Assembly (NCBI GenBank): GCA_027486655.1
Contig: JAIXOR010000001.1
Coordinates: 62,001 to 126,000, forward strand
Source of the DNA: Verrucomicrobiaceae bacterium
GTDB lineage: Bacteria > Verrucomicrobiota > Verrucomicrobiia > Verrucomicrobiales > Akkermansiaceae
Reading direction: 5' to 3'
DNA: 64,000 nucleotides
The translations under genes and the position numbers were made by a program. Below are positions 20,035-39,782 of this stretch, piece after piece. The notes under the pieces are model-generated. The model was not told where the DNA came from, did no database searches, and saw nothing but the letters and a program-made list of their open reading frames with translations. Numbering within the stretch: position 1 is the first letter of the stretch; each line of letters begins with the position of its first letter.

Positions 20035-20115
20035 GCTCCGCACGCCTCACTTTCACGGTCTAACAGCCGTCCGGCTCCTCCCGGGCGGCTCACCCCATCC
20101 CCAAACCCATCCGCC

Positions 20116-22409: not shown

Positions 22410-22473
22410 AGCCGCATCACGACGACAGGGCCCCTGTCCGCGCGGGGCTCTTCATACTTTTCCAATCAAACAT

Positions 22474-23832: not shown

Positions 23833-23835
23833 TCC

Positions 23836-24624
23836 ATGAAACCGGTTCTGTTGGAGCATCTGCCATGGACGGAGATCGCCGCGCTGCGGGAGCGGAATGG
23901 CGGTCTGCTTCTCCTGCCGATGGGTGCCACCGAGCAGCACGGTCCGCACCTTCCCGTGGCGATGGACACCCTGCTTGCGGAAGCCGTCTGCCACGCCGCA
24001 TCGGCCCGCACCGGAGTGCCCGTGCTCCCGGCACTGCGCTACACCACCTCGCAAGGGCACACCACCAAGTGGCCGGGGACCTTCTCGTTGCGCCACGATA
24101 CTTTCATCCACACGCTCACCGACATCGCCGCCTGGGCCGCCGCCACCGGTTGGAAACGCCTGCTTTTCCTCAACGCCCACTTCGGAAACGACGCGCCTGC
24201 CAGGGTCGCGGTGGATCTACTGCGTCTGTCGTACTTGGGGAAGATGCAGATTGGCCTGCTTCATGCCTTCCGGCTCAACGAGTCGATCTGGTCCGAATAC
24301 ACTGCGGATGCCGCGGATCTGCATGCGAACCAGGCGGAGACCTCGTTGATGCTTCATCTTCATCCGGATCTTGTCCGGATGGAGGCGCTCTCCACCGCCG
24401 ACGATCCGGACCGCACGGCGGGCACCGTGTTTTCCCATCCGGTGGCGCAGACCAGTCTGAACGGAGTGACCGGATATCCCTCGCGCGCCACTGCGGAACA
24501 AGGTCGCAGGCTCTTCGACGCGATGGCCGATGCACTCACCGAGCTCACGCAGCGGGCCATCCGCGAGGAAGCTCCCCTGTCCCCGGAACATTGGTCCGAT
24601 CTCCCTCCGGTTCCCCATGTCTGA
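23836..24624 (+). CDS. Creatininase-family amidohydrolase
   Basis: A 262-residue creatininase-fold protein. The metal-site signature PMGATEQHGPHLPVAMDT carries Glu33, His35 and Asp44; NAHFGN replaces GNGHGGN, and HANQAETSLML supplies the later Glu. The family hydrolyses C-N bonds in small cyclic or linear amides (creatinine, formamides, mycofactocin precursor processing). In this locus a guanidino or amide substrate is plausible but unproven. It overlaps the next gene by 8 bp. Confidence 0.85.
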   Translation: MKPVLLEHLPWTEIAALRERNGGLLLLPMGATEQHGPHLPVAMDTLLAEAVCHAASARTGVPVLPALRYTTSQGHTTKWPGTFSLRHDTFIHTLTDIAAWAAATGWKRLLFLNAHFGNDAPARVAVDLLRLSYLGKMQIGLLHAFRLNESIWSEYTADAADLHANQAETSLMLHLHPDLVRMEALSTADDPDRTAGTVFSHPVAQTSLNGVTGYPSRATAEQGRRLFDAMADALTELTQRAIREEAPLSPEHWSDLPPVPHV

Positions 24625-25039
24625 AGATTCCATCCATGCCGGTGGTTGCCTGTGTGGCGCGATTCGCTACGAGGTGAGCGGCCTCGCCCTGCAAACCAGC
24701 TTTTGTCACTGTGAGGACTGCCGCAAAGCCAGCGGTGCACCTGCGGCCGCGTGGACCTTTTTTCCGCCGGATTCCCTGCGCTGGACAAAGGGTGCGCCGC
24801 GGAAGGTTTGTTTCGCAGAGCGCATCCGCTTCTTCTGTGGAGATTGCGGGAGCCCGCTTCTTTTTGTCGATCCCGCGCTGCCGGAGTTCACGGAGGTGAA
24901 CACCTGCTCGCTGGACCACCCTGAAAACTTCCCGCCGGTGGATCAGTGCTGGATGGCCGATGCCCTCCCCTGGATGTCATCGCTTGGAGAACTGCCCCGC
25001 TTTGATTCCACCTCGCCTCCTCCTCAACCCGAACGATGA
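24617..25039 (+). CDS. GFA/CENP-V family zinc protein
   Basis: A 140-residue protein with the Zn-binding Cys pattern of the glutathione-dependent formaldehyde-activating (GFA) fold: GGCLCGAIRYE, FCHCEDCRKASG and FFCGDCGSPL. Members bind glutathione or other small thiols; most are uncharacterised. In an operon with a Rieske oxygenase that may demethylate an N-methyl compound, a role in handling released formaldehyde is an attractive inference. Both ends overlap neighbouring genes (8 bp and 4 bp). Confidence 0.85.
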   Translation: MSEDSIHAGGCLCGAIRYEVSGLALQTSFCHCEDCRKASGAPAAAWTFFPPDSLRWTKGAPRKVCFAERIRFFCGDCGSPLLFVDPALPEFTEVNTCSLDHPENFPPVDQCWMADALPWMSSLGELPRFDSTSPPPQPER

Positions 25040-25722
25040 ATGCCGTTCCGATCGAGATCCGGTTTCAACGAATCCCCGCCGGTGAGTTCCGGATGGGTGG
25101 ATCGGATGAGGACAAGTTTGTGACCGCCGTGGAGCTGCCCGCCCGAATGGTGCGGGTGAAGGGCTTTTGGATGGGTGTCCATCCGGTGACCATCGGCCAA
25201 TGGAACTTGCAGACCGGTGCATCGCTTCCAGGACATCCGGATCTGCCCGTCACCCGCGTCTCGCATGCCGAGGCGCTCGCCTTCGCTGTTGCCTTGGACG
25301 CCCGACTGCCCAGCGAGGCGGAGTGGGAGCATGCCTGCCGTGGTGCGTCCTCTTCGATCTTTCCGCAAGGCTCGAACCTCGAACCGGACGATGCAAACTA
25401 TCTGTATGACGAATCCGGTGAAACCGTCGGCCGCGGTGCACCTTCCCCGGTGGGTGCCCATCCGGCAAATGCCTTCGGCCTTCATGACATGATCGGCAAT
25501 GTCTGCGAGTGGACTGCCGATCTCTGGCATCCCACCTATCGGAATGCGCCCTGCGATGGATCCGCCTGGCTGGAATCCGGTCAGGCCGACCGACGCGTGA
25601 TCCGTGGTGGCGGATGGGACCACCTGCCACGCCTTCTCCGCGTATCATGGCGGGACTGGGCACCCGCGTCCGCCCGCTGGGACAATCTGGGCTTCCGTCT
25701 CGCACGCGACATCCCGTCATGA
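25036..25722 (+). CDS. SUMF1/FGE-sulfatase-domain protein lacking active-site cysteines
   Basis: A 228-residue protein with the formylglycine-generating-enzyme fold: FRMGGSDED near the start, FWMGVHPVTIGQWN, RLPSEAEWEHACRG, GLHDMIGNVCEWTAD, and RVIRGGGWD followed by NLGFRLA. The C-terminal segment that carries the catalytic Cys pair in true FGEs reads VSWRDWAPASARW with no Cys. Sulfatase activation is therefore unlikely, and another oxygenase-like or binding role is expected. No sulfatase is seen in the window. It overlaps both neighbours by 4 bp. Confidence 0.85.
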   Translation: MNAVPIEIRFQRIPAGEFRMGGSDEDKFVTAVELPARMVRVKGFWMGVHPVTIGQWNLQTGASLPGHPDLPVTRVSHAEALAFAVALDARLPSEAEWEHACRGASSSIFPQGSNLEPDDANYLYDESGETVGRGAPSPVGAHPANAFGLHDMIGNVCEWTADLWHPTYRNAPCDGSAWLESGQADRRVIRGGGWDHLPRLLRVSWRDWAPASARWDNLGFRLARDIPS

Positions 25723-26558
25723 ACCTCCGGCTCTTCAAAACCCTGTGGGGACACGATGGCGATCTTGAATCCGCCCTTCTGCAGGCGCGTGAAACGGGGT
25801 TTTCGGGGATCGAAGGACCGGCCCCCGCCACCGAGGCCGGGCGCGAGCGGTTCTTTCAGGATCTAACAGGCACTCCGTGGATCGCGGAAGTGACCACCTG
25901 CACCCCCCCGGGACTTTATCTGCCGCAGCCTCATGCCTCCGTCGCCCGACATCTCGCATCGCTGGAGGACGGAGTGATCCAATGCCTGCCAGGAAAACCG
26001 GAATTCATCACGACCATGGCGGGCTCCGATGCATGGGATGGAGGGGAAACCATGGATTTCCTGAAAGGTGTGCTCGACTTGGAGCAGAAGCTCGGCATCG
26101 CGATCTCGGTGGAAACCCACCGCGGCCGTCCGACTTTCCACCCGTGGCAGACAGGGAAGTGGCTCGAAGCCCTGCCCACCCTCAGGCTTACCTGCGATTT
26201 CTCCCATTGGTGCGTGGTGGCCGAGCGCCTGCTGCTTGATGAGGAACCCCGGCTCCTTGAGCTTTGCGCGTGTCATGCATGGCATGTGCACGGCCGCATC
26301 GGCTATGCCCAGGGACCGCAGGTTCCGGATCCACGGGCACCGGAATTCGTCGCGGAACTCGAGGCCCACGAACGCTGGTGGGACGTGCTCTGGCGTTCGA
26401 TGCGCGAACGTGGCTTGCAGTCTCCCACTTTCACGCCGGAAAGCGGGCCGGACGGTTATCTTCATCTCGAACCCTACACGCTCCGCCCCGTCGCCGACCT
26501 TTGGGAAATCAACCGTTGGCTCGGTCTCCGCCAACTTGAACGCATCCACCCGACATGA
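25719..26558 (+). CDS. Xylose-isomerase-like TIM-barrel protein
   Basis: A 279-residue protein of the sugar phosphate isomerase/epimerase-like (AP endonuclease 2) fold. Metal ligands are readable at the strand ends: Glu in ISVETHRGRP, Asp in CDFSHW, His in HVHGRIGYA, and Glu in TPESGPDGY. The reaction cannot be inferred from sequence; relatives isomerise sugars, inositols or hydroxypyruvate-type compounds. It starts at 25719 by ATGA overlap with the preceding gene and ends overlapping the Rieske gene. It is thus a fixed member of the operon. Confidence 0.8.
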   Translation: MNLRLFKTLWGHDGDLESALLQARETGFSGIEGPAPATEAGRERFFQDLTGTPWIAEVTTCTPPGLYLPQPHASVARHLASLEDGVIQCLPGKPEFITTMAGSDAWDGGETMDFLKGVLDLEQKLGIAISVETHRGRPTFHPWQTGKWLEALPTLRLTCDFSHWCVVAERLLLDEEPRLLELCACHAWHVHGRIGYAQGPQVPDPRAPEFVAELEAHERWWDVLWRSMRERGLQSPTFTPESGPDGYLHLEPYTLRPVADLWEINRWLGLRQLERIHPT

Positions 26559-27751
26559 ACGCACTTGCCGAATCCATCCTCAATGCCGCGGCCCTGCCCC
26601 GCGAGCGCTCCGAATCCCTTCCCGCGGGCGCTTACCGGGACCCGGCCTTCGCGGACTTCGAAAAACGCGAGGTCTTCTCCAAGGAATGGATCTCACTCTG
26701 CCACGTCTCCCAGCTCAGGAATCCAGGGGATTTCGTTCGTGTGGATCTTGCGGATGAACCGCTGCTTGTCATCCGCGGCAAGGATGATGAGATCCGCGTG
26801 CTCTCGCGCACCTGCCGTCACCGTGGCATGGATGTGATGCCGAGCGGCTTCGGCCACCCCGACGAGGGAAACCGCCGCGTGGTGCTCTGCCCCTATCATC
26901 TCTGGAGTTATGATTTGACCGGCAAACTCGTCGGCGCGCCCGAAATGCAGCAAGCCGCGGGTTTCGATCGCTCGGAGGTCTGTCTTCATGCCTTCCGCTC
27001 GGAAGTCTGGCAGGGGTTTGTGTTTGTCGACCTCTCCGGTGAAGCGCCGCCGCTTGCGGAGAGGCTGGCGGATCTTGAGTCGAGGTTCCTCGGGAAGTGG
27101 GACATGGGCTCCGCCGAGCTCGTGTGGTCCGCGCATTGGGATTGTCCTTTCAACTGGAAGGTGCTCGTCGAGAACTTCATGGAATGTTATCATCATCTCG
27201 GCGCGCATCGCAAGACGCTGGAGCCCTTCCTTCCCGCCAAGGGGTGCTGGACCGAACCGGAAAACCCGGTGTTCTCCGCCATGCACCTGCCGCTCAAGCC
27301 ATCGATGCAGGATGAGATCCGCGCGGCCGGCCGGGCGGAGACCGCCTTTCCTGTCTTTCCCGGCCTGGCGCTGGACGATTGCGTGGAGTGGTCGATCTAC
27401 CTGATCTATCCGAACGGGCTCTTTTTCCACGCGCCGGACCGTTTCTACTGGTATCGCATCCTGCCGACCGGGCCGGAAAGTTCCAGTCTGGTCACCACGC
27501 TCTTTGTCCACCCGTCCGCCATGGAGGCCCCCGGTTATCGGGAAACCCTCGAACGCGAGATCCAGGCAGGCATCGATTTTCACATGGAAGACATGGAAAT
27601 GTGCACCGCCACCCAGCGTGGCCTCGCCTCCGCCGGGTATTCGCCCGGCCGTCTCAGCCACCTGGAGGAGACCATCTGGCAACTCCAACGCTGGCTCGCC
27701 CGCAAGATCCAGGCGGATTCCGTCAGCAGGGGCGCTGGGGAAAACGTATGA
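26555..27751 (+). CDS. Rieske non-heme iron oxygenase, quaternary-amine/N-demethylase type
   Basis: A 398-residue oxygenase alpha subunit. The Rieske [2Fe-2S] ligands are Cys87-x-His89 and Cys112-x2-His115 (CPYHLW). The mononuclear iron motif is ENFMECYHHLGAH, with His213 and His218. Glu210 sits where most ring-hydroxylating oxygenases have the bridging Asp. A bridging Glu is known in carnitine monooxygenase CntA and related amine oxygenases, so an N-methylated or quaternary amine is the better substrate guess. No ferredoxin reductase partner gene lies in the window. The stop codon is inside the downstream NikR-type operator. Confidence 0.88.
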   Translation: MNALAESILNAAALPRERSESLPAGAYRDPAFADFEKREVFSKEWISLCHVSQLRNPGDFVRVDLADEPLLVIRGKDDEIRVLSRTCRHRGMDVMPSGFGHPDEGNRRVVLCPYHLWSYDLTGKLVGAPEMQQAAGFDRSEVCLHAFRSEVWQGFVFVDLSGEAPPLAERLADLESRFLGKWDMGSAELVWSAHWDCPFNWKVLVENFMECYHHLGAHRKTLEPFLPAKGCWTEPENPVFSAMHLPLKPSMQDEIRAAGRAETAFPVFPGLALDDCVEWSIYLIYPNGLFFHAPDRFYWYRILPTGPESSSLVTTLFVHPSAMEAPGYRETLEREIQAGIDFHMEDMEMCTATQRGLASAGYSPGRLSHLEETIWQLQRWLARKIQADSVSRGAGENV

Positions 27752-27773
27752 GGAATGCAAAAAATCTTCATAC
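27746..27773. promoter_or_regulatory. NikR-type operator upstream of the nikR-like gene
   Basis: GTATGA at 27746-27751, exactly 16 bases, TCATAC at 27768-27773. The first half-site contains the stop codon of the Rieske gene, and the second lies 31 bp before the start of the regulator. It matches the site at 18993 in half-sites and spacing, implying autoregulation and a shared regulon. Confidence 0.88.
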
Positions 27774-27804
27774 TGGCCCCGGGGCTGCTTTAGAGTCTGT
27801 GCCG

Positions 27805-28263
27805 ATGCGCGAGACTGACACCAGCGAAGGCGTGAAACGGATCACCGTTTCCATGCCGGATGAAACCTTCCAGGCCCTGGACCGCCTCGTCCAGCAGCGT
27901 GGCTTCGACAACCGATCGCAGGCGGTTTCCGAGATGATCCACCAGCATGCCGCCCAGCACCTTGGGAAAATCGGCACCGAGGTCATGGCCGGGACCCTCA
28001 CCCTCGTTTACGACGAATCCAAGAGTGCCCTGCTTCGCGATCTCTCGCGCATCTTCCGCGATCACATCGCCGAGGTGATTTCCTCCCAGCACGTCCTTCT
28101 GGAGGACGAGCATGTGCTTGAGGTGATCCTCATGCAGGGCCCCGCCAGGATCCTGCGGGAAATCGCCAACAAGCTCGTCACCTGCAAAGGCGTAAAGACC
28201 GCCCATCTCACCCTCACTCCCCATCTCATCCCGCCGCTCCATGCCAAGCGTGCCGCCGATTGA
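27805..28263 (+). CDS. NikR-family ribbon-helix-helix regulator with altered metal site
   Basis: A 152-residue protein with an N-terminal ribbon-helix-helix (KRITVSMPDETFQALDRL, then RGFDNRSQAVSEMI) and a C-terminal ACT-like tetramerisation domain (TLTLVYDESKS, HVLEVILMQGPA). The Arg and Thr of RIT match the DNA-contacting strand of E. coli NikR, consistent with the unchanged GTATGA half-sites. The nickel ligands are not kept: by alignment His76, His89 and Cys95 become Arg, Leu and Val, and only His87 remains. A neighbouring His pair (RDH, DEH) might build another site. It may sense another metal or a small molecule. GTG 27799 is an alternative start. Confidence 0.85.
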   Translation: MRETDTSEGVKRITVSMPDETFQALDRLVQQRGFDNRSQAVSEMIHQHAAQHLGKIGTEVMAGTLTLVYDESKSALLRDLSRIFRDHIAEVISSQHVLLEDEHVLEVILMQGPARILREIANKLVTCKGVKTAHLTLTPHLIPPLHAKRAAD

Positions 28264-28266
28264 ACC

Positions 28267-28983
28267 ATGAAACCGATCTTCGAGAAAACCCTGCACGGTG
28301 CCGGCATGTGGTCGGCCGTGATCTCCCGCCACAAGCGCCTGCGACTCACCGACATCGATGGCGGTGCGAACGTCGGCATGCTGCTCTACAACGCGCTGGA
28401 GCGGCAGGAACGCTACAACATGCCGGACACGCTCAAGGGCCAGCACATTTTCTTCCTGCGCGCGCCGTATGGCCTCCACTCGGACATGGGCCGCCTGCTC
28501 GCCTCCATCACCGCGGACTCCGTCGGTTGGCACGACACCGTGTGCGGCCACTCCGACGCGGCGCGGGTGCTGTCGAAATACGGTCCTAACAACTATCAGG
28601 CCGCCCGCAACGACTGGCATCGCAACGGTAGGGACTGCTTTCTCATCGAGCTCGCCAAGTGGGGCCTCGGCAAGAAGGACCTCGTGCCGAACCTCAACCT
28701 TTTCAGCAAGGTGGCTCCGGATGAGGATGGAAACCTCGCCTTTGTCCCGGGCCATTCAATGCCCGGCGCATCGATCGAAATTCGCTTCGAAATGGACACG
28801 CTGGTCGTGCTCAACACCTGCCAGCACCCGCTCGATCCGGATCCGGAATACCGCCACCGCCATGTGAAACTGGAGGTCCTGCAAGGTGCCGCCGCGATCC
28901 CTGGAGATCCATCCCTCACCGTCCGCCCGGAGAACCTCCGGGCCTGGGAAAACAACGAAACCTATCACGCCCTGCGTTTCTAA
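28267..28983 (+). CDS. Urea carboxylase-associated protein 1 (DUF1989; carboxyguanidine deiminase subunit-like)
   Basis: A 238-residue DUF1989 protein. Family landmarks are [33 protein letters not shown], and the Cys-containing DTVCGHSD followed by [12 protein letters not shown]1 and UAAP2 together form carboxyguanidine deiminase (CgdA/CgdB), which converts the carboxylated guanidine made by guanidine carboxylase into allophanate. Its presence therefore points to guanidine rather than urea as the main substrate. It follows the regulator by 3 bp and precedes UAAP2 by 1 bp. Confidence 0.88.
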
Positions 28984-28984
28984 C

Positions 28985-29617
28985 ATGAAAGAAAGCACGC
29001 TCGACCCGAAAGACGCCGTGTTCCGCGAGGTGATCCCCGCGGGCGATTGGTGGGTGCATGAAATCAAGAAAGGCCAGACGCTGCGCATCCTCGATCTCGA
29101 GGGCAACCAGGCGGCGGACACCCTGTTTTTCAGCGCCGCGGATCCCACCGAACGCTACAGTGCGGACCGTACGATCCAGGAGCAGGCCGCTCTTTATCTC
29201 ACCACCGGCACAAGGCTGATGAGCACCGAGGGCAATGTGCTCCTGACAATCACCGCCGACACCTGCGGCCGCCACGACACGCTCGGCGGCGCTTGTTCGC
29301 GCGAGAGCAACACGATGCGCTACGCCCACGACAAGGAATGCATGCACGCCTGCCGTGACAGCTTCATCCGCGGAGCGCAGGAGTGGAACGTCGAGCTCAC
29401 CAAGCGGGACATCACCTGCAACATCAACTTCTTCATGAACGTGCCGGTTTCTCCGGATGGCGGACTTACCTTCGCCGACGGCATCTCCGCTCCGGGCCGC
29501 TACGTCGAAATGAAGGCCGTGATGGATGTCGTCTGCCTCATCTCCAACTGCCCGCAACTCAACAACCCCTGCAACGGCTGGAATCCGACGCCGGTGGAAG
29601 TGATCATCTTCGATTGA
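28985..29617 (+). CDS. Urea carboxylase-associated protein 2 (DUF1989; carboxyguanidine deiminase subunit-like)
   Basis: A 210-residue second DUF1989 paralogue, with [36 protein letters not shown] and [13 protein letters not shown]. Together with the preceding gene it would form the deiminase of the guanidine pathway. The conserved Cys/His residues (CGRHD, GGAC) are present and probably catalytic or metal-binding. The stop codon falls in the left arm of an inverted repeat that flanks the next small gene. Confidence 0.88.
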
Positions 29618-29622
29618 AGATT
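29612..29622. repeat. Left arm of inverted repeat flanking the four-helix-bundle gene
   Basis: GATTGAAGATT, the reverse complement of AATCTTCAATC, which occurs twice at 30012-30022 and 30026-30036. The arms enclose the small gene at 29644. The left arm contains the UAAP2 stop codon. Confidence 0.8.
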
Positions 29623-29643
29623 TTTGATTGTAGATTTGAAGAA

Positions 29644-29988
29644 ATGACACCGGCCGAATTGAAAAAACGCACACAGAAGTTTGCCCTGAGGGTATTTCGT
29701 CCGGTGGAAGCCTTGCCGAAAAGCTACTCGGGGAAGACGATTGCCATGCAATTGGCGCGATCGGGGTCTTCGATTGGTGCCAACTACCGCGCGGCATGTC
29801 GTGGCAGATCGAAGGCGGAGTTTCGGGCGAAGTTGGGAACCGTGATCGAGGAAGCGGACGAATCGGCCTACTGGCTGGAAATTATCATTGAAGGAAATCT
29901 TATGGAGAAATCGAAAGTGGAGGCCTTGCTGAACGAAGCGAACGAACTAACCGCCATCATGGTGGCCTCACGCAAGTCATCCGAATAA
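29644..29988 (+). CDS. Four-helix bundle protein (23S rRNA intervening-sequence protein family)
   Basis: A 114-residue all-helical protein of the S23/IVP-type four-helix-bundle family (TIGR02436-like), with FRPVEALPKSYSGKTIA, LARSGSSIGANYRAACRGRS and EADESAYWLEIIIE. Such genes occur inside rRNA intervening sequences and also scattered singly in genomes; their function is unknown. Here it interrupts an otherwise tight catabolic operon between UAAP2 and the carboxylase. It is framed by an inverted repeat, so it looks inserted. It is oriented with the operon, which may allow transcription to continue. Confidence 0.85.
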   Translation: MTPAELKKRTQKFALRVFRPVEALPKSYSGKTIAMQLARSGSSIGANYRAACRGRSKAEFRAKLGTVIEEADESAYWLEIIIEGNLMEKSKVEALLNEANELTAIMVASRKSSE

Positions 29989-30001
29989 CCCGCACAGCGG
30001 C

Positions 30002-33000
30002 ATGAATCCCCAATCTTCAATCGGCAATCTTCAATCGGCAATCTTGGTTGCCAACCGCGGCGAAATCGCCGCCCGTGCCATCCGGACATTCCAGAAGCTC
30101 GGCTATCGTAGCATCGCCGTGTATTCGGATCCGGACTATCCGGCTCCGCACGTGGAGCTGGCAGACGAGGCGCATCGCCTCGGGCCGGGGCCGGTTTCAG
30201 AGAGCTATCTCCTGAAAGACAAGCTTCTCGAAATTGCGACGTCCTCGGGAGCAAATGCGGTTTTCCCCGGGTATGGTTTGCTCAGCGAAAACACCGACTT
30301 CGCCAGAATGTGCGAGGAGGCCGGTGTGAAATGGCTTGGACCCACGCCGGAGCAGATCATCGCCTTCGGACTCAAACACGAGGCGCGCCGCCTCGCGGGT
30401 GAGGCCGGAGTGCCGCTGGTGCCGGGAACCGATTTGTTGGAGAATGCGGACGCCGCGGTTTCCGCTGCGGAAGGCATCGGTTATCCGGTCATGCTCAAGA
30501 GCACCGCGGGCGGAGGCGGCATCGGCATGAAGGTCTGCCGCGATGCGGAGGAACTGCGCCGCGAGTTTGAAACCGTGGTGCGCTTGAGCGAGCGCAGCTT
30601 CGGTTCCGGCAGTGTGTTCCTCGAACGCTTCATCGAACGCGGCCGCCACGTGGAGGTGCAGATTTTCGGAGATGGCAGGGGCCGGGTGCTCGCGCTGGGC
30701 GAACGTGATTGCTCGGTGCAGCGTCGCAACCAGAAGGTCTTCGAGGAAACCCCTGCGCCCGGTCTAGCCGATGAAACCAGGTCCGCCCTCCATGCCGCCG
30801 CGGTCAAGCTCGGCGAGAGCGTGAGCTATCGCTCGGCGGGCACCGTCGAGTTCATCTACGACGCGGATCGCGGCGATTTCTTCTTTCTGGAAGTGAACAC
30901 ACGTCTGCAGGTCGAGCACGGTGTGACCGAGCTCGTCACCGGCATCGATCTGGTCGAGTGGATGGCGCGTCTCGCCTTGGATCCCACCTGGGAAATGCCC
31001 GCCACCGCGCCGGGATCCGCCGGTTGTGCGATTCAGGCACGGCTTTATGCGGAGGATCCGAACCACAATTTCCGGCCGAGTTGCGGACTGCTCACCGAGG
31101 CGTCGTTTCCCGATTGGACCCGCTGTGATGGCTGGGTGGCTGCCGGTGCCGAGGTGAGTCCGTTCTACGATCCGCTCCTGGCCAAGATCATGGTGCATGC
31201 GGAGAACCGCGAGGCCGCCGTGGCGAAGCTCGATCAGGCCCTTCGGGAAACCCGCATCTCCGGCATCGAAACCAACCTCCGCTATCTGCGTGGCATCGTC
31301 CAATGGCCACCCTACCTCGCGGGCGGCGTGGCCATGCGGGACATGGCTTCATTCGTCTATCAGCCGTCCACCATCGATGTGATCGCTCCCGGCACCATGA
31401 CCACCGTGCAGGACTGGCCGGGACGGGTGGGATACTGGGAAGTCGGCGTGCCGCCATGCGGGCCCTTTGATTCGCTTTCGTTCCGCCTCGCCAATACCCT
31501 TGTCGGCAATCCCGAGGGCTCGGCCGGACTGGAAATCACCATGACCGGGCCGACGCTGCGTTTCAACAGCGCCACCACCATCGCACTCGTCGGCGCCCCC
31601 GTGTTGGTGCTCAAGAACGGAGCCGCGGTGGAAATGAACCGTGCCATCCGCATGGATGCAGGCGATGTGCTCAAGATCGGCCGCTTCGAGGGAACCGGCG
31701 CGCGCGCCTACCTCGCAGTCTCCGGCGGCATCGAATCGCCGGACTATCTGGGCAGCGCCTCGACCTTCACTCTCGGAAAATTCGGCGGACCGTTTGGTCG
31801 CGCACTTCTTCCAGGCGATGTCCTTGGAATAAGGAGCGGGGACGTCTCGTCCCCGAAAGAAGGGACGAGACGTCCCTTCTCCTTCACGCACCACTGGAAG
31901 ATCGGCGTGCTTTACGGCCCGCACGGGTCGCCGGATTTTTTCCTCGATGAGGACATCGATACCTTTTTCGCCACCGAGTGGGAGGTCCACTACAACTCGG
32001 CAAGAACCGGCGTTCGCCTGATCGGTCCCAAGCCGAAATGGGCACGCACCGACGGAGGCGAGGCGGGACTTCATCCCTCGAACCTGCACGACAACGCCTA
32101 TGCCATCGGCGCGGTGGATTTCACGGGTGACATGCCGGTCATTCTCGGCCCCGATGGTCCAAGCCTCGGAGGCTTCGTGTGCCCGGTGGTGGTGGTCGAT
32201 GCCGAATTGTGGAAACTCGGGCAACTCCGCCCTGGCGACAAGATCACCTTCGTGCCAGTGGATGAGCTTTGGGCCAAAGAGCGACAGCAGCAGGTCTCCG
32301 ATCTCCTCTCGGGAAAAATCGAGGAACTGGTGGATCCTTTGGAGGGTGACCGCGGATCCTGTTTCATCGATTCGTTTGGCGAGGGCGATGACAAGGTCGT
32401 GGTGCGTCGCGCGGGCGACCGGTATTTCCTCATCGAGTTCGGTCCTCACCATCTGGATCTGAAACTCCGCTTCAAGGTGCATGTCGTTTATGAATGGCTC
32501 AAGGAGCAGGGTCTTGCGGGCATCATCGACCTCACTCCGGGCATCCGTTCCCTTCAAGTCCACTTCGACCCGGCGCTCATGGGGCGTTGCGATCTATGGG
32601 AAAGGATTCGCGAAGGCATCCTGTCCTTGCCGCCTCTGGAACAGATCGAGGTGCCCACACGCATCGTCCACCTGCCGCTGAGCTGGGATGATCCGAGCAC
32701 GCAGGAAGCGATCCGGCGCTACATGCAGGGCGTGCGGCCGGATGCACCCTGGTGCCCGAGCAACCTGGAGTTCATCCGCCGCATCAACGGCCTGGAGGCC
32801 ATCGATGAGGTCTATCGGAAGTTTTTCGCCGCCTCCTATCTCGTCATGGGGTTGGGCGACGTCTATCTGGGCGCTCCCGTGGCCACTCCGCTGGATCCGC
32901 GTCATCGGATGGTGACCACCAAATACAATCCGGCGCGCACTTGGACGCCCGAGAACGCGGTGGGCATCGGCGGGGCCTATCTCTGCGTCTATGGCATGGA

Positions 33001-33604
33001 AGGTCCGGGCGGATATCAATTCACCGGCCGCACGATCCAGATGTGGAACCGCTGGCGGGTGACCGCGGATTTCCAGCAGCCGTGGTTGCTGCGTTTCTTC
33101 GATCAACTGCGATTCCATCCGGTGGAGGCCGACGAGTTGCTCCGCCTGCGCGAGGATGTGCCGCTCGGGCGCCACAAGCTGGAGATCGAGGAGTCCGTAT
33201 TCCGGCTGGCGGATTACGAGCGCTTTCTGGAGGAACACGCCGGGGAAATCGATGGTTTCCGGAGCATGCAGCAGGCGGCTTTTGCCGAGGAACGGCGCCG
33301 TTGGGAGGAGGCCGGGCTTTCGATGGATGTGGCGGCCGAGGAGATGGTGGAGGAGTCGGCGGTGGTGGTCCCGGAGGGATGCGTGACGCTGGACAGCCCG
33401 GTTTCCGGCAGTGTGTGGAAGATTGATGGCAAGGCTGGCACGCGCATCGCTAGTGGAGCCGCCGTGCTCATCCTGGAAGCGATGAAGATGGAGGTGGCCC
33501 TCGAAGCCGATGGCGAAATCGAGATCATCGACATTCTTGTCGCGGAAGGAGCCAGTGTGAAGGCAGGGCAGTCTCTTGTGATCGCTAGACCTTTGAACCC
33601 ATGA
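30002..33604 (+). CDS. Urea/guanidine carboxylase (biotin-dependent)
   Basis: A 1200-residue single-chain carboxylase. The biotin carboxylase domain (about residues 15-460) starts ILVANRGEIAARAIR and contains the ATP-grasp region MLKSTAGGGGIGMK. KipA/KipI-like carboxyltransferase domains follow (about 460-1100), then the biotinyl domain with Lys1162 in LEAMKMEV. It carboxylates urea to allophanate or guanidine to carboxyguanidine; the adjacent DUF1989 pair favours guanidine. Two oddities exist. Residues 2-13 are encoded by the tandem repeats of the inserted upstream element, so the original start is probably lost. A hairpin-forming repeat is also embedded in frame at about residues 610-628. 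The stop overlaps the allophanate hydrolase start. Confidence 0.93.
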   Translation: MNPQSSIGNLQSAILVANRGEIAARAIRTFQKLGYRSIAVYSDPDYPAPHVELADEAHRLGPGPVSESYLLKDKLLEIATSSGANAVFPGYGLLSENTDFARMCEEAGVKWLGPTPEQIIAFGLKHEARRLAGEAGVPLVPGTDLLENADAAVSAAEGIGYPVMLKSTAGGGGIGMKVCRDAEELRREFETVVRLSERSFGSGSVFLERFIERGRHVEVQIFGDGRGRVLALGERDCSVQRRNQKVFEETPAPGLADETRSALHAAAVKLGESVSYRSAGTVEFIYDADRGDFFFLEVNTRLQVEHGVTELVTGIDLVEWMARLALDPTWEMPATAPGSAGCAIQARLYAEDPNHNFRPSCGLLTEASFPDWTRCDGWVAAGAEVSPFYDPLLAKIMVHAENREAAVAKLDQALRETRISGIETNLRYLRGIVQWPPYLAGGVAMRDMASFVYQPSTIDVIAPGTMTTVQDWPGRVGYWEVGVPPCGPFDSLSFRLANTLVGNPEGSAGLEITMTGPTLRFNSATTIALVGAPVLVLKNGAAVEMNRAIRMDAGDVLKIGRFEGTGARAYLAVSGGIESPDYLGSASTFTLGKFGGPFGRALLPGDVLGIRSGDVSSPKEGTRRPFSFTHHWKIGVLYGPHGSPDFFLDEDIDTFFATEWEVHYNSARTGVRLIGPKPKWARTDGGEAGLHPSNLHDNAYAIGAVDFTGDMPVILGPDGPSLGGFVCPVVVVDAELWKLGQLRPGDKITFVPVDELWAKERQQQVSDLLSGKIEELVDPLEGDRGSCFIDSFGEGDDKVVVRRAGDRYFLIEFGPHHLDLKLRFKVHVVYEWLKEQGLAGIIDLTPGIRSLQVHFDPALMGRCDLWERIREGILSLPPLEQIEVPTRIVHLPLSWDDPSTQEAIRRYMQGVRPDAPWCPSNLEFIRRINGLEAIDEVYRKFFAASYLVMGLGDVYLGAPVATPLDPRHRMVTTKYNPARTWTPENAVGIGGAYLCVYGMEGPGGYQFTGRTIQMWNRWRVTADFQQPWLLRFFDQLRFHPVEADELLRLREDVPLGRHKLEIEESVFRLADYERFLEEHAGEIDGFRSMQQAAFAEERRRWEEAGLSMDVAAEEMVEESAVVVPEGCVTLDSPVSGSVWKIDGKAGTRIASGAAVLILEAMKMEVALEADGEIEIIDILVAEGASVKAGQSLVIARPLNP
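30012..30036. repeat. Right arm of inverted repeat, in two tandem copies
   Basis: AATCTTCAATC at 30012-30022 and 30026-30036 (14-bp period), inverted relative to 29612-29622. It lies inside the annotated 5' end of the carboxylase gene and encodes its atypical N-terminal residues. Confidence 0.8.
31831..31884. repeat. Hairpin (REP/MITE-like) insertion inside the carboxylase coding sequence
   Basis: Two arms of 24 bases (31831-31854 and 31861-31884) are inverted copies with three mismatches and a 6-nt loop. Each arm contains a GGGACG...CGTCCC unit. The element is kept in frame and translates as roughly RSGDVSSPKEGTRRPFS, between conserved carboxyltransferase segments. Confidence 0.85.
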
Positions 33605-35352
33605 CCCTTTCTGAAATCCAGCAACGATATGCCGAGGGCGATACGCCTTCGATGGTCATCGCCGAAATCTGCCTCAAGATTCTCGGTTGGAGCGATCCGG
33701 CGCTTTTCATCCATCTGCCGGACGACGGTGAGTTGATGGATCTCGCGCGCAAGGTCGAGGAAATGCCGCGCGACCTGCCCTTGTGGGGAGTGCCCTTCGC
33801 CGTGAAGGACAACATCGACGTGGCCGGCTGGCCAACCACTGCGGCCTGCCCGGAGTTTTCTTATCTGCCCACCGGGGATGCGGAGGTCGTCCGCCTGCTT
33901 CGTGAGGCGGGTGCGATTCCGATTGGCAAGACCAACCTGGACCAGTTCGCGACCGGATTGGTGGGAACGCGCTCGCCGCACGGTGTGGCGCGCAATGCCG
34001 TGGCCCCCGGGTTTTTGCCGGGAGGATCCAGCTCGGGCAGTGCCTCCGCGGTGGCTGCCGGGCTTTGTGTGTTTTCCCTGGGCACGGATACGGCGGGGTC
34101 CGGCCGGGTGCCGGCGGCATTCCAAGAGTTGATCGGTTGGAAGCCCACCCGCGGATGGTTGAGTGCGCGGGGTGTGGTGCCGGCCTGCCGCTCGCTGGAT
34201 ACGGTCTCGGTCTTCGCACGCACGGCGGCGGATGCCGCGGCGGTGGCTGCGGTGGTCTCGAAATTCGATGCCGAGGACCCGTTTTCCCGGCGCGTGACTC
34301 ACGGCTCTCCGGTGCCACGTCGCTTTCGCTTCGGTGTGCCGGATGAAATCGACTTTTCGGGCGACCCCGACACACCGCGTTTGTTCGCGGAAGCGGTCCG
34401 GCGATTGGAATCGATCGGAGGCACCGCGGTCGAGATCGACCTCCTGCCCTTCACCGAGGCGGCAAGGCTGCTTTACGAGGGACCATGGGTGGCCGAGCGC
34501 TGGGCTGCGGTGGGGGATTTCGTCGGCAGGCATCCGGATGCGGTGTTTCCGGTTACCCGCAGAATCCTTGAAGCATCCCGCACCTGGGATGCGGTCTCCA
34601 CGTTCAAAGCACAGTATCAACTCCGAGGATACGCCCGCAAGGCGGAGGCGGTGTGGGAAACGATCGATCTGTTGCTGCTGCCGACGACCCCCCGGCTTTA
34701 CACGGTTGAGGAGAATCTTGCCGATCCCTTCAATACCAACTCGGTGCTCGGGCGATACACCAATTTCATGAACCTTCTCGATCTCTCCGCCGTCGCGCTG
34801 CCTGCAGGGCGGGCGAGGGGAGGCAAGGCCCCCTGGGGGGTCACCTTGGCCGCTCCGGCCGGTATGGATGGGGCGCTCCTGGAAATGGCCGCGCGCATGC
34901 AGGGCGAGGATTTCCCTGCCGTGGAGAAGACCGACCGGATCCCGGTCGTGGTTTGCGGGGCGCACATGGATGGCCTCGCGCTGCACTGGCAGCTCGCCGA
35001 GCGGGGCGCGGTCTTTCGATCGAAGACTCTAACAGCACCGGAATACCGCCTCTATGCGATGCCTGCGAGCGGATCGATTCCGGCTCGACCGGCGATGATT
35101 CACGACGTTTCCGGAGGGGCCTCCATCGAGGTCGAGGTCTGGGAGCTTTCCCCTGCGGCATTCGGGGATTTTGTTTCCAGGATTCCGGCTCCACTTGGCA
35201 TTGGAAAGGTGGCTTTGGCCGATGGCACCCAGCTTCCCGGATTCATTGCCGAGCCAAGGGCGATCCGTGGTGCGGAGGAAATCACCGCCCACGGAGGCTG
35301 GAGGGCCTGGCTGGCCTTGAAAGATCAGCTTACGCCAGCATGTCTCGGCTGA
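33601..35352 (+). CDS. atzF: Allophanate hydrolase
   Basis: A 583-residue amidase-signature enzyme that hydrolyses allophanate to ammonium and CO2. The Ser-Ser-Lys triad is visible: Lys69 in FAVKDN, the cis-Ser region GGSSSGSAS (143-147) and nucleophile Ser167 in GTDTAGSGRVP. The C-terminal domain (from about 430) is the AtzF-specific extension seen in two-domain enzymes. ATGA overlap with the carboxylase ensures co-translation, as in known urea- and guanidine-degrading operons. The 3' end overlaps the convergent hslO gene by 23 bp. Confidence 0.95.
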   Translation: MTLSEIQQRYAEGDTPSMVIAEICLKILGWSDPALFIHLPDDGELMDLARKVEEMPRDLPLWGVPFAVKDNIDVAGWPTTAACPEFSYLPTGDAEVVRLLREAGAIPIGKTNLDQFATGLVGTRSPHGVARNAVAPGFLPGGSSSGSASAVAAGLCVFSLGTDTAGSGRVPAAFQELIGWKPTRGWLSARGVVPACRSLDTVSVFARTAADAAAVAAVVSKFDAEDPFSRRVTHGSPVPRRFRFGVPDEIDFSGDPDTPRLFAEAVRRLESIGGTAVEIDLLPFTEAARLLYEGPWVAERWAAVGDFVGRHPDAVFPVTRRILEASRTWDAVSTFKAQYQLRGYARKAEAVWETIDLLLLPTTPRLYTVEENLADPFNTNSVLGRYTNFMNLLDLSAVALPAGRARGGKAPWGVTLAAPAGMDGALLEMAARMQGEDFPAVEKTDRIPVVVCGAHMDGLALHWQLAERGAVFRSKTLTAPEYRLYAMPASGSIPARPAMIHDVSGGASIEVEVWELSPAAFGDFVSRIPAPLGIGKVALADGTQLPGFIAEPRAIRGAEEITAHGGWRAWLALKDQLTPACLG

Positions 35353-36094
35353 CCTCGTAATTCGCGGCGCAGCGCGGGCACTGGAGTTTGATGAAGTCGG
35401 ATTCACCGAACAATTCGTCGAGGCGCTCCCTCCACCCGCCGAGAACAGGCAGGATTCGTTCAAGCGTGCACCCGCAGTGGAAGCGGAAGCGCCGGGTCTC
35501 GAGAAGGGAGGTTTCTTCGGTCTTGTCGAGTGTGGCCAGGGCCTCTGCATCCAGCGCGTCGAACCATGCCATGTCACAATCCGGCTGGGCGGCCACCAAG
35601 GTGAAAACCTCGTCATCCAATCGAAAGGCCTTCGCCGGGCGTTGTTCGGATTGTTCGTAGTATTGGGAAATCCAGGCGACGGGATCCTTGCCGTCCACCT
35701 CAAGAGTCGAGGTGCGGGGTTCGTGCTGATTGGGAGCGGTGGTCTGGGCGTAGAAGTAGTTCCGGTCCGGCTCCCGCACGTCTTCGGTGAAGATCCTGCC
35801 AGTCACGGACTCGGTCGTCGAGGCACCGGTGACGAACAGATTCAGCCGGGGTGCGCGCAGACTGGCGGTCCAGGCAATCGTTTCTGCCCAGGGCCTGGCG
35901 ACGAGGTGCAGGGTGAGCATGGCCAGCGAGTCCTTGAGCATCTGATCGAGCTCTGCCGGATGGCGGATGCCATGCTGCATCAGGTGCAGGTAGTAGTCCG
36001 TGTAGATCGGGGTGAACTGACCGCGCAGCACAAGGGCGTTGCGCTTCCGGACGAAAACCGACTCGATGCGGGTGAATTCTTCAACGGGATGCAT
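35330..36094 (-). CDS. hslO: Hsp33 redox-regulated chaperone
   Basis: A 254-residue Hsp33. The C-terminal zinc-binding redox switch shows CGC (FHCGCTLERI) and CPRC (LQCPRCAANYE), the C-x-C...C-x2-C pattern. Oxidation releases Zn and activates holdase function in the cytoplasm. I start at ATG 36094 (MHPVEEF), since the 12 residues before it in the longer frame are not family-like. The convergent overlap with the allophanate hydrolase gene is 23 bp. Confidence 0.92.
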   Translation of the reverse strand: MHPVEEFTRIESVFVRKRNALVLRGQFTPIYTDYYLHLMQHGIRHPAELDQMLKDSLAMLTLHLVARPWAETIAWTASLRAPRLNLFVTGASTTESVTGRIFTEDVREPDRNYFYAQTTAPNQHEPRTSTLEVDGKDPVAWISQYYEQSEQRPAKAFRLDDEVFTLVAAQPDCDMAWFDALDAEALATLDKTEETSLLETRRFRFHCGCTLERILPVLGGWRERLDELFGESDFIKLQCPRCAANYEVSRDMLA

Positions 36095-36247
36095 GGGGCG
36101 AGCACAGAAGAGCACAGCGGAGGGGCGCACGCCACCGGGAAACGCAAAATGCCATTGATGCGGCCGCGGGCATCTGGTTTTGGCTCATGCTGCCATGGTT
36201 TTCCACCTTGTCCTTCACACGCCTCCGGCCATCATCGGCGGGTATTG

Positions 36248-38665
36248 ATGAAAACCCACGTCTTCGTTTTTTCCGCCCTATTGCTTTCGTTGTTTCCGCT
36301 GCCGATGAGCGCCGCGGCCGGCGCGAAGCCGCTTCAAGCTCCGGATTTCACCAAGGGTGAGGGCATTCCGGCGAATGCACGGCACGATTGGAATCTCGGC
36401 CCCACCGGACTGCGCGGCTGGATGTATTGCGACAAAATGGTCACCAGTGATGCGCGCCAGATCCAGATCACGCGTGTGGATCCAGGCTCCCCGGCGGATG
36501 GCGTTATCGCCGTGGGCGACGTCCTGCTCGGCGTCGGCGGAAAGGGCTTTGCCTCGGATCCCCGCACCGAGCTGGGTCAGGCCATCAGCCGCGCGGAATC
36601 GGAGGCCGGCGGAGGTTTGCTTTCCTTGACGCGCTGGAGAGCCGGCAAAACCGAGGAAGTGCGGGTGAAACTCCCCATCCTCGGCAGCTACTCAGAGACC
36701 GCGCCATACGGCTGCAACAAGTCTTCACGCATCTACAAGCAGGGCATCGGTGAACTCGCCGCTCGCGCCGCCACGAGCGACTACCCGAGGAAACAGAACC
36801 CGATCACCCGCTCGCTCAATGCCCTTGCACTGCTCTCCAGCGGGGATGCCGCCCATCTTCCTCTGGTGAAACGCGAGGCCGAGTGGGCAGCCGGATTTTC
36901 CAGTGATGGATTCGCCACCTGGTATTACGGCTACACCATCCTGTTCCTGGCCGAGTATGTCATGGCCACCGGAGACCAAAGCGTCATGCCAGGCTTGCGG
37001 CGGCTTTCCCTCGAAGCCGCGAAGGGACAAAGCGCCGTAGGATCCTGGGGCCACAAGTTCGCCCGCCCGGACGGCCTGCTCCATGGCTACGGGATGATGA
37101 ACTCGCCCGGCGTGCCTCTCACGATCGGTCTGCTCATGGCGCGCAAGGCCGGCATCGACGATCCGGAGCTGTCGCGGGCCATCACCTTGAGCGCCCGCCT
37201 GATCCGCTTCTACACGGGAAAGGGCGCGGTTCCCTATGGCGATCACCACCCGTGGACGCAGACCCATGAAGACAACGGCAAGTGCGGCATGGCCACGGTT
37301 CTCTTCGATTTGTTAGAAGAGCCCGCGCCCGCGGAATTCTTCTCCCGCATGAGCACCGCCTCCCACGGTGCCGAGAGGGATGGCGGCCACACCGGAAACT
37401 TTTTCAACCTCCTTTGGTCGCTTCCCGCCATCTCCCGCTCCGGTCCTCACGCCACCGGCGGTTGGATGCGCGAGTTCGGCGGTTGGTACCTCGACCTCGC
37501 CCGCCGCTGGGATGGCAGCTTCGTCCATCAAGGGCCGCCGGAGCCGGACAACGACAAGTATGCCGGCTGGGACTGCACCGGTGCCTACCTGCTCGCCTAT
37601 TCGCTGCCCCACAGGAAGCTCCTTCTTACCGGAAGGAAACCCTCCATCATCCCGCAAGCGGGGCCCACCGCAGTGGAAGGCCTCCTTGCCGACGGCCGGG
37701 GTTGGTCTAACAAGGACCGCGTCTCCAGCTGGCGCAAACTCGGTGAGGCCGATCTTCTCCAGCGCCTCGCCTCCTGGTCGCCCGTCGTGCGCGAGCGCGC
37801 CGCCAAAGAACTCGCTTCCAGGCCCAATCCGCCACTGCCCGCTCTCATCGCGTTGCTCGCCTCGCCCCGGATCGATGCCCGCTTGGGCGCCTGCCAGGCG
37901 TTTGAAGAACTCAAGTCTGCCGCCGCTCCGGCTGTTCCCAAGCTTCAGGAAACCCTCGATCACCCGGATCTCTGGCTGCGTGTGAAAGCCGCCGATGCCC
38001 TCGCCGCCATCGGCCCGGCCGCCATGCCCGCGGTGCCCCGCTTGTTGGAACGTCTGGCGCGCGGACCCACGCCCGACGACCCGCGCGGCATGGAGCAACG
38101 CTTTCTCTGCTTCTCGGTCTTCGGCGGCATGCTCGGGAAATCGCTCGATGGAGTCGATCGCGATCTCCTCCGCAAAGCCGTCGTCCTCGGCCTCCGCAAC
38201 GAAGACGGGCGCGCCCGGGGAGACGTGGGGCTTGTCTATCAGAAACTCAGCTTCGATGAGATCCGGCCACTGCTGCCGGCCATCCGCGACGCCGTGGTGA
38301 AGCCGGCACCCAGTGGCGAAATGTTTGCCGACGGCATCCGTCTGAAAGGCTGCGAGATCTTCGCGAAGCACCGCATCCGCGATGGCATGGAAATGACCTT
38401 CCAGCTCTTTGACCTGGATCGCTGGGGCAAGGGCCCGCGCATCAAGCGCTGCCTGGAGATCCTGCGGATGTATGGCTCCGCCGCAAAGCCCCTGCTGCCC
38501 CGCCTGCGGGAGGTTGAGAAACAACTCGCCGTTCATGCCGAGTCCAAGTCCCTCCAGCCCTGTCTTGAGCAAATCCGTTCGCTCATCCTTGAAATCGAGG
38601 GCTCCACCGCCGTGGTGGAGCTTCGCGACATCCACGGTGCTCCTGCACCAGCGTCAAACCCATGA
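36248..38665 (+). CDS. Exported DUF6288-like protein with PDZ and HEAT-like repeats
   Basis: An 805-residue protein: signal peptide (1-24), a PDZ-like domain (about 55-140, ITRVDPGSPADGVIAVGD), and an alpha/alpha-barrel-like region with conserved WYYGYTILFLAEYV, SWGHKF and HPWTQTHEDNGKCGM. A C-terminal run of HEAT-like helices follows (about 500-780). This matches the DUF6288 proteins common in Verrucomicrobiota and Planctomycetota, whose role is unknown. The middle resembles a polysaccharide-lyase or terpene-cyclase toroid only in outline. Its stop overlaps the start of the SGNH gene, so they act in one transcript. Confidence 0.75.
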   Translation: MKTHVFVFSALLLSLFPLPMSAAAGAKPLQAPDFTKGEGIPANARHDWNLGPTGLRGWMYCDKMVTSDARQIQITRVDPGSPADGVIAVGDVLLGVGGKGFASDPRTELGQAISRAESEAGGGLLSLTRWRAGKTEEVRVKLPILGSYSETAPYGCNKSSRIYKQGIGELAARAATSDYPRKQNPITRSLNALALLSSGDAAHLPLVKREAEWAAGFSSDGFATWYYGYTILFLAEYVMATGDQSVMPGLRRLSLEAAKGQSAVGSWGHKFARPDGLLHGYGMMNSPGVPLTIGLLMARKAGIDDPELSRAITLSARLIRFYTGKGAVPYGDHHPWTQTHEDNGKCGMATVLFDLLEEPAPAEFFSRMSTASHGAERDGGHTGNFFNLLWSLPAISRSGPHATGGWMREFGGWYLDLARRWDGSFVHQGPPEPDNDKYAGWDCTGAYLLAYSLPHRKLLLTGRKPSIIPQAGPTAVEGLLADGRGWSNKDRVSSWRKLGEADLLQRLASWSPVVRERAAKELASRPNPPLPALIALLASPRIDARLGACQAFEELKSAAAPAVPKLQETLDHPDLWLRVKAADALAAIGPAAMPAVPRLLERLARGPTPDDPRGMEQRFLCFSVFGGMLGKSLDGVDRDLLRKAVVLGLRNEDGRARGDVGLVYQKLSFDEIRPLLPAIRDAVVKPAPSGEMFADGIRLKGCEIFAKHRIRDGMEMTFQLFDLDRWGKGPRIKRCLEILRMYGSAAKPLLPRLREVEKQLAVHAESKSLQPCLEQIRSLILEIEGSTAVVELRDIHGAPAPASNP

Positions 38666-39759
38666 AAACCAAACCCATGAAAACCCTCGTTGCCATCACC
38701 TCCGCCGCCCTCGCGATCTGCGTTTCCCTGGCCTCCGCGGAATCCTCACGCCAGCTTCCACGTCCGGATGCAGGCCCGGCGGATCTTTCCAAGCCCGTCA
38801 AGGTCTTCATCCTGATGGGCCAGTCCAACATGTTCGGAATGGGCGATGTGGGACCTGCGGAAAAACCCGGCACCCTCGAATACCTCACCCGCACCGGAAA
38901 GAAGTATCCTCATCTTCTGGACGAGGCGGGCAAGTGGTCGGTGAGAAACGATGTCCGCTACGTCCAGGTGATGCAGGGCCGGGGAGACAAGTTCCAACTT
39001 GTGAAAAACGATTGGCACAGCCTTCAAGGCAAGGCCATCGGGCCCGAGTTGCAGTTCGGCCACATCATGGGACACCTCATCGATTCACCGGTCCTGATCC
39101 TCAAAAGCTGCATCGGCAACCGCAGCCTGGGTTGGGATCTGCTTCCGCCCGGCAGCGAGCGCTACGTCGTCGACGGCAGGACCTATGCCGGCTACAAGGA
39201 CACACCGGATTCATGGATCGAGGGGCAGCCGAAGAAGGTGGTCAATTGGTATGCCGGCAAGCAGTATGATGACGATGTCGCCAACGCGAAGAAGGTCCTC
39301 TCCGAGCTTGGAACCTACTATCCCGGCGCTTCCCGCTACGAAGTGGCCGGCTTCGTCTGGTGGCAGGGACACAAGGACCAGAACCCGGTCCACGCCAGCC
39401 GTTACGAGCAGAACATGGTTCGACTCATCCACTGCCTGCGCAAGGACTTCAACGCCCCGAAGGCACCTTTCGCGATCGCCACAATCGGCTTCGACGGATG
39501 GAATCTCAAGGAACCCGGCCTCACCGTCGCCAATGCCCAACTTGCCGTGGCGGATGCAAGGAAACACCCGGACTTCGCCGGAAACGTCCGCACCATCGAA
39601 GCCCGCGATTTTTGGAAGGAGGCTGCCGTTTCACCGAATCCCAAACAGGGCTACCACTACCATCGCAACGCGGAGACCTTCATGGAAGTCGGCGACGCCC
39701 TCGGCTGGGCGATGGCGGACATGCTCGGCCTCGCGCCGCAAAAAGAGAAGGGGAAGTGA
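38662..39759 (+). CDS. Exported SGNH/sialate O-acetylesterase-family (CE6-like) esterase
   Basis: A 365-residue exported hydrolase with a signal peptide (about 1-26). SGNH blocks are clear: nucleophile Ser in ILMGQSNMFGMG, Gly/Asn in ILKSCIGNRSL, and FVWWQGHKDQ. The last block is GYHYHRNAETFMEVG with the catalytic His. The family removes acetyl groups from sialic acids or xylan. With the GH115 enzyme 4 kb away, deacetylation of xylan-type polymer is a reasonable guess. It is coupled by ATGA to the DUF6288 gene. Confidence 0.85.
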   Translation: MKTKPMKTLVAITSAALAICVSLASAESSRQLPRPDAGPADLSKPVKVFILMGQSNMFGMGDVGPAEKPGTLEYLTRTGKKYPHLLDEAGKWSVRNDVRYVQVMQGRGDKFQLVKNDWHSLQGKAIGPELQFGHIMGHLIDSPVLILKSCIGNRSLGWDLLPPGSERYVVDGRTYAGYKDTPDSWIEGQPKKVVNWYAGKQYDDDVANAKKVLSELGTYYPGASRYEVAGFVWWQGHKDQNPVHASRYEQNMVRLIHCLRKDFNAPKAPFAIATIGFDGWNLKEPGLTVANAQLAVADARKHPDFAGNVRTIEARDFWKEAAVSPNPKQGYHYHRNAETFMEVGDALGWAMADMLGLAPQKEKGK

Positions 39760-39782
39760 GGCAATCTCGTCATTAAGAGATC

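Follow-up and report, generated by a model that had tools for sequence, protein, structure and literature searches.

Introduction

In Di Nocera et al. (2013; PMC3733652), in-frame intragenic REPs are described for the GTAG and CGTC superfamilies, with dimers or grouped repeats encoding 20-30 amino acids. According to the same study, Opitutus terrae, a member of the Verrucomicrobiota, has the most intragenic GTAG repeats, including those in both of its uvrA genes; the stop codon of a neighbouring gene is often supplied by the GTAG terminus; and recB of two Xanthomonas species carries different REPs at about the same site. Rickettsia palindromic elements (RPE) are described there as palindromic repeats that lie in frame within genes whose protein products are likely functional, the RPE-1 insertions being longer than the element described below. 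REPs usually exceed 100 copies per genome (PMC2817692).

The stretch of DNA analyzed here (64 kb; the window) carries a long palindrome within a predicted urea carboxylase gene. Like GTAG and CGTC REPs, the repeats that form it are short tagged stem-loops, often dimeric, that lie in frame within genes. They differ in their tag, which is (T/C)AAGGAG in most units rather than the terminal tag by which the superfamilies are recognized, and in their low copy number in the own genome. Because tag and copy number differ, we file the element as REP-type in a broad sense, outside the GTAG and CGTC superfamilies. Another difference, relative to that description, is that here the linker of one gene was turned over many times across the family, with heptad repeats among the alternatives. 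In the broad sense, the 27-nt unit is a stem-loop within the usual 20-40 nt, with an unpaired foot tag and compensating changes; it is associated with a RAYT gene (contig C3), and it forms dimers of opposite orientation, one on C2 (in urea carboxylase) and two on C3. The unit departs from typical REPs in copy number (at least 15 in the own genome) and in not being mostly extragenic there, although the pooled sample described below is largely intergenic. The original prediction had compared the hairpin with RPE, a comparison that is apt in idea only and not by sequence comparison; what sets the present case apart is a RAYT gene between dimers of the same family. The latter arrangement, a Y1_Tnp match on C3 between two head-to-head dimers, recalls REPtrons (RAYTs flanked by REPs), from which it differs in tag sequence and in the low score of the predicted RAYT (25.8 bits to PF01797, cut-off 23).

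As set out below, the hairpin very probably consists of two head-to-head units of a RAYT-associated REP-type element that lie in frame in the carboxyltransferase A/B linker and serve as a passive spacer, at a site that has been repeatedly replaced in relatives.

Results

The Hairpin and Its Host Gene

The features in the window are as follows.

30002-33604, plus strand: predicted urea carboxylase ORF, 1200 amino acids, carrying the hairpin element (TIGR02712, CT_A_B, 3va7/5i8i)
31832-31888, plus strand: variable linker, codons 611-629, made up by the REP dimer (tblastn alignments to relatives; AlphaFold coil)
31831-31884, no strand: large inverted repeat formed by two REP units (23-nt arms, 91% complementary, 8 nt apart)
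31830-31856, plus strand: REP unit 1, with TAAGGAG tag, 8-bp stem and TCT loop, read I-RSGDVSSP (model R2, 41.7 bits, E 4.2e-8 in the window)
31859-31885, minus strand: REP unit 2, with tag GAAGGAG, the tags of the pair pointing outward; gene-strand reading EGTRRPFSF (model R2, 32.0 bits, E 8.9e-6)

The whole window was scanned for inverted repeats (arms of at least 15 nt, spacing of at most 80 nt), which gave eight pairs. The pair at 31831-31884 is the longest with non-overlapping arms, the next such pair having 17-nt arms at 82%, and it is the best paired of the long inverted repeats there. The original prediction (24-nt arms, three mismatches, 6-nt loop) describes the same structure, its count reaching one pair further inward than that of the tool. 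As it had also stated, the element is in frame and translated. The host ORF matches TIGR02712 along its full length (1763.6 bits, residues 13-1194; curated cut-off 1303.85), and Pfam CT_A_B covers residues 481-752.

The linker is bounded by two conserved blocks, LPGDVLGI before it and W-x-I-x-VLYGPHG after it (W-K-I-G-V in the own protein). The element had been described as an insertion between conserved blocks, and its placement agrees with this; however, a linker of similar length is found in every urea carboxylase compared, so the repeat replaced linker sequence with no clear net addition. In the alignments the REP dimer makes up essentially the whole linker, and the idea of a mobile element turned protein linker fits residues 611-629 well. 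Linker length is 16-29 aa in all urea carboxylases compared, with low conservation (ranging from 16 to 28 aa among the 34 rows with more than 70% identity and from 17 to 29 aa among the other 71, these 105 rows including 11 duplicate fetches). Alignment had been suggested as a check on whether the residues are unique, and they are not conserved in distant carboxylases; the corresponding linkers of the nearest solved structures, 3va7 and 5i8i, are longer and show no sequence relationship to it. For residues 455-772, an AlphaFold model built on a 65-row alignment (mean pLDDT 78.2, pTM 0.83) predicts the linker as coil with strands 153-156 and 177-184 on either side (model numbering, i.e., residue minus 454); block pLDDT values in the linker region are 90, 73, and 89.

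Heptad repeats also occur close by. The urea carboxylase ORF opens with an AATC-type heptad array at 30005-30046, which encodes its initial residues (MNPQSSIGNLQSAI), and a second array at 29612-29639 overlaps the UAAP gene at its end. A small ORF (29383-29988) situated between that gene and urea carboxylase, close to a heptad array, presumably resembles a four-helix-bundle protein.

The Repeat Unit and Its Copies in the Own Genome

The 15-mer GGGACGTCTCGTCCC, which had been proposed as the repeat unit, has three exact matches in the genome, of which two belong to the urea carboxylase element. With up to two mismatches it has 20 genome matches, as does its reversed control; given this lack of excess, the 15-mer taken by itself does not qualify as a high-copy repeat, and a structure-aware model was adopted instead. 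It takes joint scoring of tag and base pairing to reveal the repeat. The unit then proves to be a tagged hairpin of 27 nt, the variation in its stem consisting of compensating changes. Two such units, each composed of tag, 8-bp stem, and TCT loop, are set head-to-head in opposite orientation to form the element. The expectation of further genome copies was thus borne out for the structured unit, of which there are at least 15.

Among nine aligned units of the own genome, AGGAG is present in all nine and AAGGAG in eight. The motif AAGGAG resembles a ribosome-binding site. Seven of the eight stem pairs show changes on both sides, and 98.6% of cells in this alignment are paired; its covariation score was reached by none of 500 shuffles, and pairing collapses when partners are slid by 1-3 columns. 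A covariance model built from seven units, with both urea carboxylase units left out (R2), nevertheless detected the pair in the window, scoring them 41.7 and 32.0 bits, followed by the next match at 10.4 bits. With a model trained on all nine units, both of these included (R1), they score 43.6 and 38.5 bits, respectively.

Model R1 detected at least 15 REP units in the own genome at E ≤ 1, a lower bound since 150 of 677 first-look candidates were scored; training sequences account for ten of these sites, the other five being new. Nine units lie inside ORFs, i.e., two in urea carboxylase, one each in PheT, PurL, and SufD, as named by family scans, and four in one RHS-like ORF (one of the four at E 0.08). 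Eight of the nine pass a strict intragenic test, with SufD narrowly below it. Four further units flank a RAYT gene. The last two are a unit at C2:61552, whose tag TAA is the stop codon of a preceding frame of at least 500 codons, and a unit on C39. PheT, PurL, and SufD each carry a REP in frame. Compared with a solved structure, the REP-encoded stretch of PheT falls in a variable region with no clear net insertion; the SufD alignment does not reliably extend to the REP, and for PurL no solved chain matched at 1e-40.

The ORF with four in-frame REP units, which we take to be RHS-like, is on C15 of G000 (L179, L196); it also has NIQNS-type heptads and stands beside a Y1_Tnp gene. A text pattern for full dimers, TAAGGAG...CTCCTTA, was abandoned: it matched only the two RAYT-flanking dimers and missed the urea carboxylase element, the second tag of which is GAAGGAG.

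Association With a RAYT Gene

The own genome has 15 matches to Y1_Tnp (PF01797). One of these, at C3:12497-12628, is the 25.8-bit match mentioned above and lies between head-to-head dimers at 12111-12168 and 12788-12845. A 13-nt core, GGACGTCTCGTCC, is common to the second units of both C3 dimers and the urea carboxylase element. A second RAYT-like ORF, on C86, has AAGGAG-tagged hairpins of a different stem type on both sides. On the basis of the dimers around the C3 gene and the C86 hairpins, the family is RAYT-associated by position; from position only, we infer that RAYT moves the units. The element had been likened to REP or MITE. It has relatives in the genome, and given its positional link to a RAYT transposase gene, REP is a better fit than MITE.

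Linkers of Related Urea Carboxylases

Luteolibacter-like relatives have REPs of other types, heptads, or unrelated sequence in this linker. A fold survey of 96 linkers (11 duplicates dropped; z below -5 against letter shuffles taken as strong) identified eight strong folders, all within one Akkermansiaceae/Luteolibacter-like clade. Their stems differ: GACGTCTCGTC in the own linker and L051, GACACTCCTGTC or GACACTCTTGTC in L022, L084, and L052, GACATTTTAGTC in L054, GACATTCTTGTC in L029, and GTCGACC in L026. Half a REP is present in L027, L032, and L037 and a single REP in L033. AATC heptads replace the REP in L030, L031, L035, and L094, and L074 has AATTCAA heptads. At the same site, the linker of L066, from a Verrucomicrobiaceae MAG whose carboxylase is 60% identical, holds a GTAG-ended palindrome with an CGGGCTTCAGCCCG stem, a different REP-like type; it folds at -58.9 and is truncated in the segment folded for the 96-linker survey.

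Sister sequences differ at this site while agreeing elsewhere. L035 and L037 are 96.8% identical outside the linker (1173 positions), and their linkers, both of 19 aa, are unrelated. REP types differ between L051 and L084 (94.8% identical outside the linker), and a REP in L026 corresponds to heptads in L030 (93.3%). Linker lengths are nearly equal within these sister pairs, which are 93-97% identical elsewhere. On a tree of 32 rows made without the linker, at least ten changes are required among the states REP, heptad, and other; these states were labelled by hand, and the tree leaves 9 of its 29 inner branches open.

The linker types were also sought elsewhere by a REP pattern search of 13 genomes, in which the reversed-pattern control gave one match overall and the rows of G131 and G148 are not listed. 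G125 and G146 carry further units identical to that of their linker (the linker copy of G146 being assigned from positions), and units of the linker's type occur elsewhere in G145 and G079. In G147 the sole match to the pattern had the letters of the linker's own unit, and no second copy was seen; G111 gave no match to the pattern.

A single ancestral REP insertion, inherited vertically with stems drifting by paired changes and never replaced, would account for the dimers at the same codon position in the own sequence, L022, L026, L029, L052, L054, and L084, most of which start I-R-S, and for the nesting of several dimers within one clade. We regard this as unlikely, given the wholly different linkers of L035 and L037, the recurrence of linker REP types elsewhere in some host genomes, and the comparison of L051 with L084, which differ by one base per hairpin and one in the spacer, such that the frame is kept only in combination. 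The wholesale differences in stem type between sister species suggest instead that other repeats have overwritten the resident ones. L051 has the TCT type of the own unit and its sister L084 does not, which could reflect shared descent or transfer.

The original prediction further proposed that the mRNA hairpin could slow translation or create an RNase site. On such a reading, selection would maintain the pairing. The fold is certainly stable, the RNA of 31825-31890 reaching -43.5 kcal/mol (z -7.4; none of 200 shuffles as good), and the dimer is strongly paired in eight linkers despite different stems. However, 88 of the 96 linkers, including those of close relatives (L025, L028, L030, L031, L035), have no strong hairpin, and with the hairpin missing in most relatives a conserved RNA role is quite improbable, although an effect confined to this one gene may exist. 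Moreover, the repeat family shows such pairing at all its locations, so that no gene-specific selection is required, and an Rfam scan of 20000-40000 returned no match at the gathering score. The weakest alternative, a chance palindrome in an ordinary fast-evolving linker, has in its favor the variability of the linker in all urea carboxylases compared and the lack of 15-mer enrichment, but is contradicted so squarely by the leave-out model scores, by family dimers flanking the RAYT gene, and by same-layout dimers at the same codons in several species that we give it practically no weight.

Units Across the Family

Unit matches at E ≤ 0.01 were found in 28 of 141 family genomes. Re-scoring of about all but four of the places listed gave 172 matches, or 170 once two repeats were dropped, which were classed with a codon-usage score. 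Of these, 104 are intergenic, 22 strictly intragenic, and the rest near gene ends or ambiguous. The frame read R-S-x-x-V-S accounts for 16 of the 22 intragenic matches; three are in the +1 frame and three in minus-strand frames, the last three all being second halves of dimers. On average, 4.8 of the six frames of a unit are open. The 22 matches are not independent, with four from one RHS-like ORF, one from a relative of that ORF, two from one UvrA ORF, and three being second dimer halves. Hosts outside the own genome include UvrA, ThiC, NuoG, LeuS, and an Eco57I-type methylase, as identified by family scans, leaving out the hosts of L249, L260, L305, and L307. Where a sense gene lies directly upstream of a TAA-type unit, the tag TAA is that gene's stop codon in 18 of 22 cases (e.g., L204 1501, L299 1500, L309 1507).

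Related stem types reach 87 copies in G141, 95 in G026, and 123 in G129. The REP type of G026 and G141 reads mostly AAGGAGGG(T/A)GGACACTC(C/T)TGTCC among the matches listed, with no control match.

An In-Frame RAYT in leuS

Six leuS loci carry a RAYT in frame:

L236:34-3558, plus strand: leuS frame with in-frame RAYT in the editing domain (family scan)
L275:175-3546, minus strand: leuS frame with in-frame RAYT in the editing domain (family scan)
L359, L362, L363, L378: leuS frames with in-frame RAYT at the same editing-domain site (motif reading)

They are six of 30 loci read, from 135 genomes with a match; four of the loci counted as lacking a RAYT were judged solely by the absence of RAYT motifs. 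No RAYT is present in leuS of the own genome. In G122 and G036, leuS is a single open frame of 1175 and 1124 codons from stop to stop, corresponding in our reading to some 1070 aa when counted from the probable start. In both, the stretch between the editing-domain motif MAVPAHDERD and NSGFLDG contains a REP, a RAYT bearing an NHVH motif, and additional REPs. These two frames score 37.9 and 36.4 bits to PF01797, above the cut-off of 23, and 70.8 and 65.6 to NF047646, below the cut-off of 80. The peptides flanking the RAYT differ among the six loci. In a RAYT tree, the leuS copies were compared with only two standalone RAYTs, and one insertion is not separated from several.

Discussion

How could one linker be rewritten so often in an enzyme that is otherwise conserved? 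We propose that the linker has to be soluble and of roughly the right length, while any sequence with these properties would do. Repeat DNA would arrive via RAYT activity or by recombination with other copies, and a repeat that preserves the frame would be tolerated and act passively as a flexible spacer. Within genes, the unit is mostly read in one of several open frames, as R-S-x-x-V-S, a small polar peptide. Resident copies may then be overwritten by fresh insertion and loss, or by gene conversion, rather than by letter-by-letter change. The mRNA hairpin is most likely a by-product.

A broader reading, which we offer tentatively and hold to be somewhat doubtful, is that the RAYT/REP elements of this family are adapted to coding sequence. 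They would supply small polar linkers in a favored frame (urea carboxylase, UvrA, PheT, PurL, ThiC, NuoG), be overwritten repeatedly at one site or more, and, as REP-RAYT-REP, form an extra in-frame domain within the leuS editing domain of six genomes. The turnover at one site, the favored reading frame, and the in-frame RAYT in leuS are apparently new. A literature search of titles and abstracts, partial in coverage, returned nothing on the urea carboxylase linker as a repeat (the supplement list of Di Nocera et al., 2013, lying outside the search) and nothing on a leuS-RAYT fusion.

If the broader reading is true, the cell would produce a transposase either as a segment of an essential synthetase or from inside it. 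The urea carboxylases form a natural series, in which one protein segment was replaced repeatedly by probably mobile repeats of similar length, the rest of the enzyme having barely changed. With such a series one can study by what route palindromic elements come to lie in frame within coding sequence, and how much of its sequence a protein linker actually requires.
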